From: Myxacorys almedinensis A
Lineage (GTDB): Bacteria > Cyanobacteriota > Cyanobacteriia > Leptolyngbyales > Leptolyngbyaceae
DNA: 64,000 nt
Direction of reading: 5' to 3'
Assembly: GCF_010091945.1 (NCBI RefSeq)
Contig: NZ_WVIE01000012.1
Location: forward strand, 62,001 to 126,000
The translations under genes and the position numbers were made by a program. The notes under the pieces were generated by a model. The model was not told the DNA's origin, did not search any database, and saw only the letters and a program-made list of their open reading frames with translations. How positions within the stretch are numbered: position 1 is the first letter of the stretch; each line of letters opens with the position of its first letter. Positions 16,503 through 38,733 of the stretch are shown here, piece by piece.

Positions 16503-17114
16503 TCACAAATTATCTTGAGCGCGCCAAAGATACCAACTCGCGATCGTACGATAGGGCCTCCACGGTTGAGCGATCGCTTCGACGGTTTTTTTGTTGGGTA
16601 GCTCTGCTAGTTGATACACTCGACGAATTCCAGCCCGAATTCCCAAATCATCGACTGGCAATACATCCCAACGGTGCAACCGGAAGATCAGCAGCATGTG
16701 CACCGTCCATCTTCCAATTCCTTTCACCTGCGTTAGGGTCTGAATAATGGTTTCATCATCCAGTAATTCTAAGTCTGCGATCGCGGGTAACCCATCAGAT
16801 ATTTTCTGGGCTAGGTCTTTGAGATAGGCAATTTTCTGACGGGAAAGCCCTACTCCTCGCAGCGTTTCATCAGGTGTGCTGAGAATGGCATCTGATGTGA
16901 ATGCTTGACCCGCATAAAGTTGTGTAAAACGTTGATAAATTGCTGTTGCTGATGCTGTAGAAAGCTGTTGATAAATAATTGATCGCGATAGAGAATAAAG
17001 TAAATCTCCAGGATGCTGGGTCTGATCTAATGTGCAACAACCAATCTGATCAATCACTTGTCCTAAGATTGGATCAGATGCCCGAAGAGACTTGAGTGCG
17101 ATCGCGTAATCCAT
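16503..17114 (-). CDS. DNA-3-methyladenine glycosylase II (HhH-GPD superfamily)
   Basis: 203 residues from the ATG at 17114. The helix-hairpin-helix lies in LTQVKGIGRWTVHMLL, with the catalytic Asp downstream in LPVDDLGIRAGI. Both are hallmarks of AlkA/Mag-type base-excision glycosylases that remove alkylated purines. A longer frame to 17138 would start at GTG and take its first residues from the inverted end of a mobile element (17120-17268), so the internal ATG is preferred. The protein lacks the N-terminal domain of E. coli AlkA, as in yeast Mag1-type enzymes. It is a single gene, without an obvious operon. Confidence 0.88.
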   Translation of the reverse strand: MDYAIALKSLRASDPILGQVIDQIGCCTLDQTQHPGDLLYSLSRSIIYQQLSTASATAIYQRFTQLYAGQAFTSDAILSTPDETLRGVGLSRQKIAYLKDLAQKISDGLPAIADLELLDDETIIQTLTQVKGIGRWTVHMLLIFRLHRWDVLPVDDLGIRAGIRRVYQLAELPNKKTVEAIAQPWRPYRTIASWYLWRAQDNL

Positions 17115-32669: not shown

Positions 32670-35600
32670 ATTTCAGTCCCGTTGCCGGGATTTTTTTGGT
32701 TGAAAGTCAACTTCAGAGACTCGCACCGGGCGCTTTTATTCGTTTCAGTCCCGTTGCCGGGATTTTTTTGGTTGAAAGCCTCTGAGCAGTTGCCCCAAAC
32801 ATACCAACACTCTGGTTTCAGTCCCGTTGCCGGGATTTTTTTGGTTGAAAGCCTTGAATTTAGTGGCAACTGAGGCGATCTTCTGTTTCAGTCCCGTTGC
32901 CGGGATTTTTTTGGTTGAAAGACTGATTCAGCACGCTCTACGACTCAACAATATCAGTTTCAGTCCCGTTGCCGGGATTTTTTTGGTTGAAAGCTGAAAA
33001 CTGTTCCAAAGCTTATCGAAACTCCGCGGTTTCAGTCCCGTTGCCGGGATTTTTTTGGTTGAAAGCAGGGCGGAAAGCTGCATCTCACGATTGAGTACTC
33101 TCACGTTTCAGTCCCGTTGCCGGGATTTTTTTGGTTGAAAGCAGCCTCGGATCAAGCGGTGATTGAGCAACTGATTAGTTTCAGTCCCGTTGCCGGGATT
33201 TTTTTGGTTGAAAGTCGCGTTGACTATCCCGCGACTCGCACCATATTTGATGTTTCAGTCCCGTTGCCGGGATTTTTTTGGTTGAAAGCAGGAATCACTA
33301 CCCGATCGCTCTCAGCTTACACAGGATCTGTTTCAGTCCCGTTGCCGGGATTTTTTTGGTTGAAAGCAGCAATAAACATTCTCATAATCATCTGTGGCTT
33401 CAACATTGTTTCAGTCCCGTTGCCGGGATTTTTTTGGTTGAAAGATTAGGCAGAAATTATGGAAGCGTTAACAACCCAGTGTTTCAGTCCCGTTGCCGGG
33501 ATTTTTTTGGTTGAAAGCTTGAGACGTGAATTTAGGATTTACAGTTGACACAGGCTGTTTCAGTCCCGTTGCCGGGATTTTTTTGGTTGAAAGTGCGCTA
33601 CCGCCAGAACCCAAGAAGCAACGGGGTAGTTTCAGTCCCGTTGCCGGGATTTTTTTGGTTGAAAGGGGGCACGATAGGAGTCAGCCTGTCGTGAGAGGGT
33701 TTCAGTCCCGTTGCCGGGATTTTTTTGGTTGAAAGGTGAGTTTGCCTATGTGCCAGAACCACTCTACTACGTTTCAGTCCCGTTGCCGGGATTTTTTTGG
33801 TTGAAAGTGACGATGGTCGCAGTTGGCGCACCGCCCCCTCAGTAGGTTTCAGTCCCGTTGCCGGGATTTTTTTGGTTGAAAGCTCGGACCTAGAGGGGTA
33901 GCTAACCCGTCGCTGGGAGTTTCAGTCCCGTTGCCGGGATTTTTTTGGTTGAAAGGCTAGAAGGAATGCCCAAGCTAAAGTAAGACGCGGGTTTCAGTCC
34001 CGTTGCCGGGATTTTTTTGGTTGAAAGAATCTGCGTAAGTTCAGTTCGTTCAGAAACTTCTGTTTCAGTCCCGTTGCCGGGATTTTTTTGGTTGAAAGTC
34101 GAAAGAATAGATATTTATCAACGTTTTACAGAAAAGTTTCAGTCCCGTTGCCGGGATTTTTTTGGTTGAAAGTATTTTAATTTGGGATATTGCCAACTCA
34201 GAGTTATGTTTCAGTCCCGTTGCCGGGATTTTTTTGGTTGAAAGCTTGAAAAATAGAAATATCAAAGTTTTTAGGTATATGTTTCAGTCCCGTTGCCGGG
34301 ATTTTTTTGGTTGAAAGGTTCCAAGTGCCATTTTCGTATTTCGCCAAACCCACAGTTTCAGTCCCGTTGCCGGGATTTTTTTGGTTGAAAGAAGATTGAT
34401 CCATTGTGGTTAATTTCCCATAGAAAGTTAGTTTCAGTCCCGTTGCCGGGATTTTTTTGGTTGAAAGTCCCCTACTAATTTCCCTTCATTTTTGATGGAG
34501 TGTTTCAGTCCCGTTGCCGGGATTTTTTTGGTTGAAAGCGTTTGTTCCAGAGATTGAAGCAACTGCTAAGCTGCGTTTCAGTCCCGTTGCCGGGATTTTT
34601 TTGGTTGAAAGCTTTTCAATGTAACATTCCAAATTTGCATATTATGTTTCAGTCCCGTTGCCGGGATTTTTTTGGTTGAAAGTTTATGATTTTGATAATT
34701 CCATTCATGATTCGCTGGTTTCAGTCCCGTTGCCGGGATTTTTTTGGTTGAAAGATTTTTTCTAAAAGATTGTTTCCTGAAACACTACAAAGTTTCAGTC
34801 CCGTTGCCGGGATTTTTTTGGTTGAAAGCCGATCTCCGTCTGCATCCCAGTAATCGGATAGATGTTTCAGTCCCGTTGCCGGGATTTTTTTGGTTGAAAG
34901 CTCATCCAATAGATCGTTTGAAGCTGCTCTTGTTCTTGTTTCAGTCCCGTTGCCGGGATTTTTTTGGTTGAAAGTATTAGCGAAGAACATGGTGTATATT
35001 TCCGCATCGTTAGGTTTCAGTCCCGTTGCCGGGATTTTTTTGGTTGAAAGTGTGGATGTTCTAAAAGTAAAATGGCTGGCTAACGTTTCAGTCCCGTTGC
35101 CGGGATTTTTTTGGTTGAAAGCAGCCTTCATCAAAACACGTCAAAAACCCGTGTTACCCGTTTCAGTCCCGTTGCCGGGATTTTTTTGGTTGAAAGTTGA
35201 GAAGATTGCTCAGCGCCAAGAACAAATTAAAAAAGGTTTCAGTCCCGTTGCCGGGATTTTTTTGGTTGAAAGCACGATAGCTTTTATCTTGAACAAGGCA
35301 CCAAGGCTAGTTTCAGTCCCGTTGCCGGGATTTTTTTGGTTGAAAGTCATTTTGCGACGTCGCATCACTTAGACGGGGCAGTGTTTCAGTCCCGTTGCCG
35401 GGATTTTTTTGGTTGAAAGTCATTGGTCTGAAGTGTTTGAAACAATTGGTTCTGAGTTTCAGTCCCGTTGCCGGGATTTTTTTGGTTGAAAGTATACATT
35501 CCTGTAAATGTAAAAGCACAACAAGCAAGTTTCAGTCCCGTTGCCGGGATTTTTTTGGTTGAAAGTTAGAAATCAATCAATCAATACATCGACCCCTAAC

Positions 35601-38290
35601 GCGTTTCAGTCCCGTTGCCGGGATTTTTTTGGTTGAAAGAAATAAGCTGATGAACACCTGGTGAACTGTCTGGAGTTTCAGTCCCGTTGCCGGGATTTTT
35701 TTGGTTGAAAGGTGGATTTGCCTCAGCTTCCACTCTTCAAGTCCCTCGTTTCAGTCCCGTTGCCGGGATTTTTTTGGTTGAAAGAGAGGAAGTGGATGAA
35801 ACTCTGGACGCTTATTATCGTTTCAGTCCCGTTGCCGGGATTTTTTTGGTTGAAAGTTAAGTATTATTACGATGTTTGATAACTTTTTGCAGGGTTTCAG
35901 TCCCGTTGCCGGGATTTTTTTGGTTGAAAGAGGATAAGCGAAAAACGTGTAAGTAGGGCATTCATGTTTCAGTCCCGTTGCCGGGATTTTTTTGGTTGAA
36001 AGGTGATATTGTTCTTCCTGTGGATTCATCAATTGAAAGTTTCAGTCCCGTTGCCGGGATTTTTTTGGTTGAAAGCTTAAAATGTTTGAAAAATTTAATG
36101 CAAATTCGCGATGTTTCAGTCCCGTTGCCGGGATTTTTTTGGTTGAAAGTTTTTAGTAAGACTAAGAAAGTGATTCCTGCATGGGGTTTCAGTCCCGTTG
36201 CCGGGATTTTTTTGGTTGAAAGGCAATATTGAGCGAGAGACAAATATGGGGCAATTGTTTCAGTCCCGTTGCCGGGATTTTTTTGGTTGAAAGTTATGAA
36301 AATACTGCCAGTTCAAAAGAGTATTCGATGTTTCAGTCCCGTTGCCGGGATTTTTTTGGTTGAAAGGAATTACGTGATGTTGTGAGAGTTTTTACAGATG
36401 AGTTTCAGTCCCGTTGCCGGGATTTTTTTGGTTGAAAGAATTTGTTCTTGGCGCTGTGCAATCTTCTCAAAATAGTTTCAGTCCCGTTGCCGGGATTTTT
36501 TTGGTTGAAAGCTAATAATGCTAACAGGTGGAAACGGTATTCCGCCTTGGTTTCAGTCCCGTTGCCGGGATTTTTTTGGTTGAAAGAACAAAAAACGATC
36601 GCTGTTTTCGTCCGCAATACGCTCGTTTCAGTCCCGTTGCCGGGATTTTTTTGGTTGAAAGGAAGGCGCTGATATCAATCCTAATATCCCGATGATGTTT
36701 CAGTCCCGTTGCCGGGATTTTTTTGGTTGAAAGGAAAACACACACAGGAGCCAATTAATATGTTTATCATGTTTCAGTCCCGTTGCCGGGATTTTTTTGG
36801 TTGAAAGTTCTAAAACAGTTTTAGGATTTTACAATCTTCCATCGGTTTCAGTCCCGTTGCCGGGATTTTTTTGGTTGAAAGTCTTGAGATAAGTTTGGTG
36901 ATTGGCTACTATTTTAGTTTCAGTCCCGTTGCCGGGATTTTTTTGGTTGAAAGTCTAGCACATTTATATAGTGTGCAAATTGCGGCTAGTTTCAGTCCCG
37001 TTGCCGGGATTTTTTTGGTTGAAAGTTTGCAAGCTTTTGAACAATCGGATTTTCGATTCGATGTTTCAGTCCCGTTGCCGGGATTTTTTTGGTTGAAAGT
37101 CTAATTGCGCTTGGAGACTTGCGATTTCTACCATCGTTTCAGTCCCGTTGCCGGGATTTTTTTGGTTGAAAGATGAATAGAATTTTCTTTTCTAACAAAG
37201 CGAACAGTTTCAGTCCCGTTGCCGGGATTTTTTTGGTTGAAAGGCAAGTGTTTGTGAAACATTAGGTTTTACAAATGTGTTTCAGTCCCGTTGCCGGGAT
37301 TTTTTTGGTTGAAAGTTAAGAGGCGTTGCTCTCCCTGTACGTCGATCGTTTGTACAATCGTCGTTTCAGTCCCGTTGCCGGGATTTTTTTGGTTGAAAGT
37401 AGGATTTGCCATCAACCACTATTGCGCTCAAGATTCGTTTCAGTCCCGTTGCCGGGATTTTTTTGGTTGAAAGTGCTACCTTTGCGAAAGTTATTTTGAC
37501 GTATAAATGTTTCAGTCCCGTTGCCGGGATTTTTTTGGTTGAAAGAAGAAATCCAAGCATCATTAAAACAGTTTAATTGGTTTCAGTCCCGTTGCCGGGA
37601 TTTTTTTGGTTGAAAGTAGGGAGTAAATTAACGTTGCTTGCCAAAAAAAGGTTTCAGTCCCGTTGCCGGGATTTTTTTGGTTGAAAGGTTGATGCCATCA
37701 TACCCATCATTTTGAAACAATCGTTTCAGTCCCGTTGCCGGGATTTTTTTGGTTGAAAGAAGTGTCGCATCAAATTTCAGCAAATCCGAATAATAGTTTC
37801 AGTCCCGTTGCCGGGATTTTTTTGGTTGAAAGGGCTATCGATTTAGATGATGAGCTTTATCAAATTGGTTTCAGTCCCGTTGCCGGGATTTTTTTGGTTG
37901 AAAGCGTGTGTGGGCAAGGAATCACTATTTTCTAATAAAAAGTTTCAGTCCCGTTGCCGGGATTTTTTTGGTTGAAAGTTTGGTGCGTTAACGAAAATTC
38001 AAAAAAAAACATATGTTTCAGTCCCGTTGCCGGGATTTTTTTGGTTGAAAGTTTGTTCCCTGTTCATTCCTCAATCCGATCAACATCGTTTCAGTCCCGT
38101 TGCCGGGATTTTTTTGGTTGAAAGGTTAGCCAGCCATATTACTTTAAGAACATCCACAGGATCCTCAATCCGATCAACATCGTTTCAGTCCCGTTGCCGG
38201 GATTTTTTTGGTTGAAAGCGTAAAATTTACATCAAGTCCCTTGAACCGAGTTCGTTTCAGTCCCGTTGCCGGGATTTTTTTGGTTGAAAG
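32670..38290 (-). CRISPR. CRISPR array, 77 repeats and 76 spacers, I-D-like repeat, read on the minus strand
   Basis: By direct counting there are 77 copies of a 37-base repeat, from 32670 to 38290. On the plus strand each reads GTTTCAGTCCCGTTGCC, then GGGATTTTTTTGGTTGAAAG. All copies appear identical except the leftmost (32670), whose first base is A instead of G. Spacers are mostly 33-41 bases, with outliers of 47 (37316-37362) and 57 (38125-38181). The minus-strand form starts CTTTC and ends TCCCGGCAACGGGACTGAAAC minus its first base (CCCGGCAACGGGACTGAAAC). That end is almost the same as the recalled type I-D repeat of Synechocystis CRISPR1, with a TCCCG-GCAA-CGGGA hairpin and an 8-base ACTGAAAC handle. 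Together with the variant repeat at the left end, this places the leader at the right. No cas gene occurs in the window. Confidence 0.97.
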
Positions 38291-38733
38291 TCCGCCCTCT
38301 GAAACTCGCTTTAGGAGCCGTTTTCAACCCGACATTTGGCAAAGGTTGTTTTAACCTTCATTTCATGCCTCTATTTTTTGCTTACAAAAATACGTAGAAC
38401 CTTATAACTATTGAATTGTCGTGGTTCTAGCGATTGGCAAACCTCCCAGGGTTTTTACCCTCGCTTGGGTTCGCCAAAATAATTGTGCCTGGCTGCCCCT
38501 CATGATAGACCGATCTGCCCTATCTGTCGAGACGCACATTATTTTGTTTCTGCCTATGGGGAGGAATATTCGCTAAAACCCTTGCCCCAATTCACCTGCC
38601 TAAAGAAGCAACCTCCCCAAAAAGTGATTTAGCAAAACTATTTTTGGCGCTCATATTAATTTTCTATTTCTATTTCTTGCATCCTCTCCTCTAAACCCTA
38701 TTTCCACTTCCCTTGGTGCTGTAAAGTGTTTGT
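38291..38733. promoter_or_regulatory. Probable CRISPR leader and divergent promoter region
   Basis: 443 non-coding bases between the last repeat and the HEAT gene. The first 120 bases beside the array are AT-rich, as leaders usually are, and on the minus strand contain TATAAGG about 110 bases before the first repeat. Further right, an imperfect hairpin TTGGC...GCCAA (38434-38438 with 38473-38477) encloses AGGGT/ACCCT. It is not followed by a T-run on either strand. Leader status rests on the orientation inferred from the repeat, not on mapped transcripts. Confidence 0.55.

Follow-up and report, generated by a model that had tools for sequence, protein, structure and literature searches.

CRISPR array A and its assignment to the type I-D system

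The window, a stretch of 64,000 nucleotides from the genome of Myxacorys almedinensis A, contains a long CRISPR array (array A) bordered on its right by a conserved leader block. Spacers are numbered from A0 (leftmost, oldest) to A75 (rightmost, newest).

32670..38290, minus (crRNA) strand: CRISPR array A, with 76 spacers between 77 repeats of 37 nt
38367..38484, minus strand: leader block of array A, a homologue of the leader that accompanies the type I-D cas operon (contig C15)

On the crRNA (minus) strand the repeat reads CTTTCAACCAAAAAAATCCCGGCAACGGGACTGAAAC and ends with GGGACTGAAAC, as does the type I-D repeat of Synechocystis. The normal spacer length in array A is 33-41 nt, and the distal repeat (32670-32706) carries a terminal C-to-T change. 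The leader block aligned to the leader of the I-D operon on C15 with a score of 51, against a maximum of 15 for shuffled sequences. The leader homology on the right of the array, together with the terminal change in the leftmost repeat, indicates that the crRNAs are encoded on the minus strand and that the leader lies on the right; higher-numbered spacers are therefore newer, A75, A74 and A73 being the newest and A74 newer than A73. The conserved leader block stops 76 nt short of the first repeat (38291-38366), compared with 16 nt in the array on C15 described below, leaving in array A approximately 60 nt of extra sequence directly at the integration site.

No cas genes were found among the open reading frames flanking array A. 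A complete type I-D operon (cas3d, cas10d, csc2, csc1, cas6d, cas4, cas1 and cas2) is located elsewhere in the genome, on contig C15 (locus L021), where the genes were called by PADLOC HMMs, with cas2 recognised by eye 3' of cas1. The same contig harbors a second I-D array (array B) of at least 36 spacers, and the 3' half of the repeat, CCCGGCAACGGGACTGAAAC, is common to arrays A and B. By the operon present in the genome and by its shared leader and repeat, array A belongs to the type I-D system. Type I-D systems work with Cas4 and a GTN PAM, most of their spacers being 35 nt long (PMC10212523), and the system described here shares with that of Synechocystis the set of Cas3', Cas10d, Csc2, Csc1, Cas6d, Cas4, Cas1 and Cas2, as well as spacers of about 35 nt (PMC10212523). 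In contrast to Synechocystis, array A and the cas operon are separate, each on its own contig, and the 5' half of the array A repeat is diverged.

A separate III-B operon and an array with its own distinct repeat occur on the same contig as array A. The III-B array (L022 4963-9455), situated about 70 kb from array A, consists of 60 repeats and is accompanied by III-B cas genes and by its own Cas1; its spacer C11 is 64 nt long, and its spacers C19 and C54 are related to each other. Within array A, spacer A63 (37316-37362) is a length outlier of 47 nt without explanation, whose start differs from that of its neighbour, and spacer A19 shows an 18-nt exact match to the host chromosome (16923-16940, inside a minus-strand ORF), possibly by chance or as a partial self-match.

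Anatomy of spacer A74

Spacer A74 (38125-38181), with its 57 nt, is the sole spacer of this length among 4,117 spacers from 72 cyanobacterial arrays, in which the modal length is 35. A preliminary description of the locus had linked it to spacers A32 and A73, and both the coordinates and the identities reported there are exact: A74 is identical to A32 at 32 of 34 positions as the reverse complement, and to A73 at 20 of 20 positions at the repeat-abutting ends. The corresponding scores (28-30 for A74/A32 and 20 for A74/A73) stand against a maximum of 13-14 for shuffled spacers. The elements involved are the following:

35051..35084, minus strand: spacer A32, 34 nt, older acquisition, 32/34 identical to the A74 insert
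38052..38087, minus strand: spacer A73, 36 nt, first in the array when A74 integrated
38068..38124, minus strand: leader-distal copy of a 57-bp duplication, composed of 20 nt of A73 (38068-38087) and the repeat 38088-38124
38125..38161, minus strand: 37-nt insert, the probable true new spacer within A74, with the crRNA-strand sequence TCCTGTGGATGTTCTTAAAGTAATATGGCTGGCTAAC; an oppositely oriented variant of A32
38162..38218, minus strand: leader-proximal copy of the 57-bp target-site duplication, identical to 38068-38124

The two copies are identical over 57 of 57 bp and stand on both sides of a 37-nt insert of ordinary spacer length, the leader-proximal one being made up of the 20 nt with which A74 ends on the plus strand (38162-38181) and the repeat 38182-38218. 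In crRNA orientation, A74 consists of GATGTTGATCGGATTGAGGA followed by TCCTGTGGATGTTCTTAAAGTAATATGGCTGGCTAAC, whereas A73 consists of the identical 20 nt, GATGTTGATCGGATTGAGGA, followed by ATGAACAGGGAACAAA. In other words, the repeat and the leader-proximal part of the older neighbour are exactly duplicated, the longer unit is the newer one, and the remainder of A74 alone matches A32.

Protospacers of A74, A73 and A32 were found neither in phages and plasmids, searched at the DNA and the peptide level, nor in IMG/VR, GTDB or cyanobacterial genomes, and HMM scans with the 19-residue translation of A74 gave no match. GTDB matches in Sphingobacterium and Micrarchaeum were judged to be due to chance. 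As neither a contiguous protospacer nor one for the remainder was recovered, the reading of A74 developed below is drawn from its anatomy and from statistics.

Repeated sampling of one invader group

The sequence similarity supports the view that one invader segment was captured in two variant forms, as A32 and as the 37-nt insert of A74. Both have the end GTTAGCC, on the PAM side in A32; the insert was therefore probably acquired at the same PAM as A32 and then flipped on insertion. Three further spacers of array A have relatives of this kind:

35197..35235, minus strand: spacer A34, 31/32 identical to A51 (opposite strand) and 31/35 to B19 (same PAM-side end)
36439..36474, minus strand: spacer A51, relative of A34 and B19 (B19: L021 17578-17650)
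37905..37941, minus strand: spacer A71, from the protospacer that also gave B17 in the C15 array, 35/35 identical

A71 and B17 (L021 17721-17793) agree over 35 nt and in their PAM-side end but differ in length; the two type I-D arrays acquired this protospacer independently of each other. A34, A51 and B19 represent one segment in three variants, whose differences fall mostly in third codon positions of an open frame (EKIAQRQ), the segment reading E-K-I-A-Q-R-Q-E/D-Q-I-K/R-K. These relationships support repeated sampling of one invader group by both type I-D arrays. A similar sequence, EKIAQSQDQI, is encoded in IMG/VR contigs such as L024, by a gene located just ahead of a tape-measure-like gene. 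This peptide match of A34/A51/B19 to a tail-region gene is a lead only, and comparison of the other spacers with the IMG/VR contigs carrying the gene gave no further match.

Survey of other cyanobacterial arrays

Over-long units were sought in arrays whose repeats end with GGGACTGAAAC or GGGATTGAAAC, with a required length of at least 44 or 45 nt. The resulting set comprised 72 cyanobacterial arrays and 4,117 spacers; the arrays were picked for containing long spacers, and rates are therefore inflated. A prefix test, requiring at least 8 shared nt, was then applied to the 187 spacers of at least 43 nt. Sixteen of these, in 14 arrays of 14 genomes, reproduce exactly, at their start, the first 8-20 nt of the next older spacer; A74 is one of them, the other 15 carry the same signature, and 13 other cyanobacterial genomes show it. 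No long spacer shared its prefix with the next newer spacer (0/187), nor was a shared prefix seen between non-adjacent spacers (0/13,950 pairs). When the order of spacers within arrays was shuffled 1000 times, the mean number of such matches was 0.21 and the maximum 2, compared with the 16 observed.

Once the copied prefix is removed, the remainders measure 31-39 nt in all 16 cases, within the normal spacer range. The duplicated lengths are 8, 9, 10 (seven cases), 11 (four cases), 13, 18 and 20 nt, clustering at 10-11 with two at 18-20, a distribution suggestive of one and two turns of the helix. The 44/45-nt cutoff of the search partly determines where the 10-11 nt peak begins on its lower side; the fall-off above the peak does not stem from a threshold. 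Wherever these spacers overlap with other spacers (A74 with A32, and the cases in L207 and L218), the overlap falls in the remainder and never over the junction. In four of the other arrays the assumed leader side is supported by the cas genes lying 5' of the array, namely those for the type I-D effector proteins Csc1/Csc2/Cas6d with Cas4 and Cas1 in L138, L201 and L206, and Cas6d/Cas4/Cas1 in L198. The signature was not seen in 10 related arrays that had not been selected for long spacers, and 171 of the 187 long spacers (~91%) lack a prefix from the older neighbour, indicating that most over-long spacers arise in other ways.

Other array irregularities were encountered as well. In L139 (G149:C56), the adjacent spacers 36 and 37 are related in that the older one equals TAGAAAC plus the entire newer spacer, a pair that resembles a unit duplication with slippage at GAAAC and constitutes a different kind of array error. 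Over-long units in G039:C184:7983-8082 and G099:C1:2001478-2001577 contain a second partial copy of the 5' half of the repeat, representing another class of imprecise repeat duplication.

Probable origin of spacer A74

With an exact 57-bp duplication around an insert of normal length, in an array of this orientation, and with the recurrence of the signature in the predicted direction and adjacency, A74 is very probably the outcome of off-site integration by the type I-D adaptation machinery. Ordinary integration duplicates the 37-bp repeat alone. In the case of A74, a 37-bp prespacer would have been inserted with a normal leader-side attack, the second attack taking place 20 bp inside the then-first spacer A73, between 38067 and 38068, and not at the repeat-A73 border. 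Gap filling would then duplicate the repeat plus 20 bp of A73, i.e. 57 bp, instead of the 37-bp repeat alone, and would yield in one step the product leader-R-[20 nt of A73 + 37-nt new spacer]-R-[A73]-R. The likely agent of the error is Cas1-Cas2(-Cas4); the slip may be helically phased, 10-11 bp corresponding to one turn and 18-20 bp to about two, and the insert itself would have a flipped orientation with respect to its PAM. A mimic of the repeat end within A73 was considered as the cause of the site choice and rejected: the likeness of the off-site position to the repeat end is weak (6/11), and 3.4% of positions score as well.

The preliminary description had read the three spacers as records of two invader alleles, one with an extension and one ending early. 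In this reading A74 would stem from one long, uninterrupted protospacer extended at the C-terminus and A73 from the form that stops early, sampled at the same PAM, giving two or three alleles of one gene. Allelic sampling is real in this genome (A32 and the A74 insert, A34/A51/B19, A71 and B17), variants were re-sampled at the same PAM in relatives, and the PAM-side end of A32 is also the far end of A74. The allelic part of the claim stands for A32 and the first 37 nt of A74, but not for A73 and A74 as short and long forms, as their 20-nt identity belongs to the exact 57-bp duplication that includes the repeat. Furthermore, a contiguous protospacer does not predict that the two spacers are immediate neighbours, that the longer unit is the newer, that the identity runs through the repeat or that the remainder is of normal length, features that recur in 15 other long spacers. 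The frame and stop arguments say little: of random 57-mers, 53% have that frame open on one or both strands, three of the six frames of A74 are open, and no early-stop allele is needed, the plus-strand base-2 frame being open in A74, A73 and the reverse-complemented A32. Long and short C-terminal forms of a gene were likewise not borne out. The junction-spanning pattern IEDPV-D/E-x-LK matched only phage proteins without the WLAN continuation. The allele reading is accordingly improbable. A related idea, that A74 is a contiguous piece between two opposed PAMs, had drawn its appeal from the agreement between the far end of A74 and the PAM-side end of A32; it was dropped once the 57-bp duplication had been seen, and the coincidence is explained by a flipped insert reusing the A32 PAM.

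Replication template switching, in which synthesis leaves the repeat preceding A74 for the following one, copies 20 nt of A73 and then returns to the insert, would yield the same product as off-site integration, and CRISPR repeats may be good switching partners. Such a process should however copy newer and distant spacers too, in contrast to the 16 older neighbours and the complete absence of newer and non-adjacent ones in the survey; it also leaves the 10-11 nt mode unexplained and requires, in A74, a return jump without microhomology, which makes it less probable still than the allele reading. The least credible of the explanations, with almost no likelihood, is recombination within the array without integration, by tandem duplication followed by unit loss: unit duplications do occur in the surveyed arrays, but two steps and non-homologous breakpoints would be required here, and a simple duplication would put a second copy of the 37-nt insert beside A74, where the unrelated A75 is found. 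A74 would in essence be the chimera formed within the array that the preliminary description had set against its own allele reading, although with an origin at integration rather than in recombination.

Comparison with known systems and consequences

In the type II-A system of Streptococcus thermophilus, Cas1-Cas2 can carry out an aberrant second attack within the first spacer, after which full-site integration duplicates part of that spacer (PMC6895254). Those events involve mutated or lengthened repeats, not the wild type, and span 8-9 bp (PMC6895254); mutated type II-A repeats are the only precedent in the literature for an off-site second attack. The cyanobacterial cases differ in occurring in unmutated native arrays, several of them with I-D cas genes, and in spanning 8-20 bp, with a mode at 10-11 and two cases at 18-20. 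Spacer slipping and flipping are known for type I-F (PMC5059440), where adaptation errors likewise concern spacer ends and orientation, and a flipped insert fits the relation of A74 to A32; the type I-F errors, however, lie in prespacer trimming and orientation at the protospacer, whereas the error in A74 would lie at the integration target.

On balance, we lean towards a broader reading in which native cyanobacterial adaptation complexes, those of type I-D included, sometimes cut one or two helical turns (10-11 or 18-20 bp) past the repeat, leaving chimeric spacers with a seed from an older invader that would serve both as a fossil record of the error and as retargeting or priming guides. The crRNA of A74 would start with 20 nt of the A73 target, with its seed aimed at the older invader; its new 37 nt would lie far from the PAM and probably make a poor guide against their own source, while the crRNA could re-target, or prime against, the A73 target. 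More generally, with the duplicated part being the crRNA seed, such units may prime against the older target rather than guide against the new one.

The measurement of repeat length by the integrase has so far been studied with mutant repeats, and native arrays appear to record natural failures of this ruler, with the step size readable from the sequence. Some over-long spacers are chimeras, for which a search for a contiguous target or a translation through the junction would mislead. The signature may also help to orient arrays, the long unit being found on the leader side in 16 of 16 cases.
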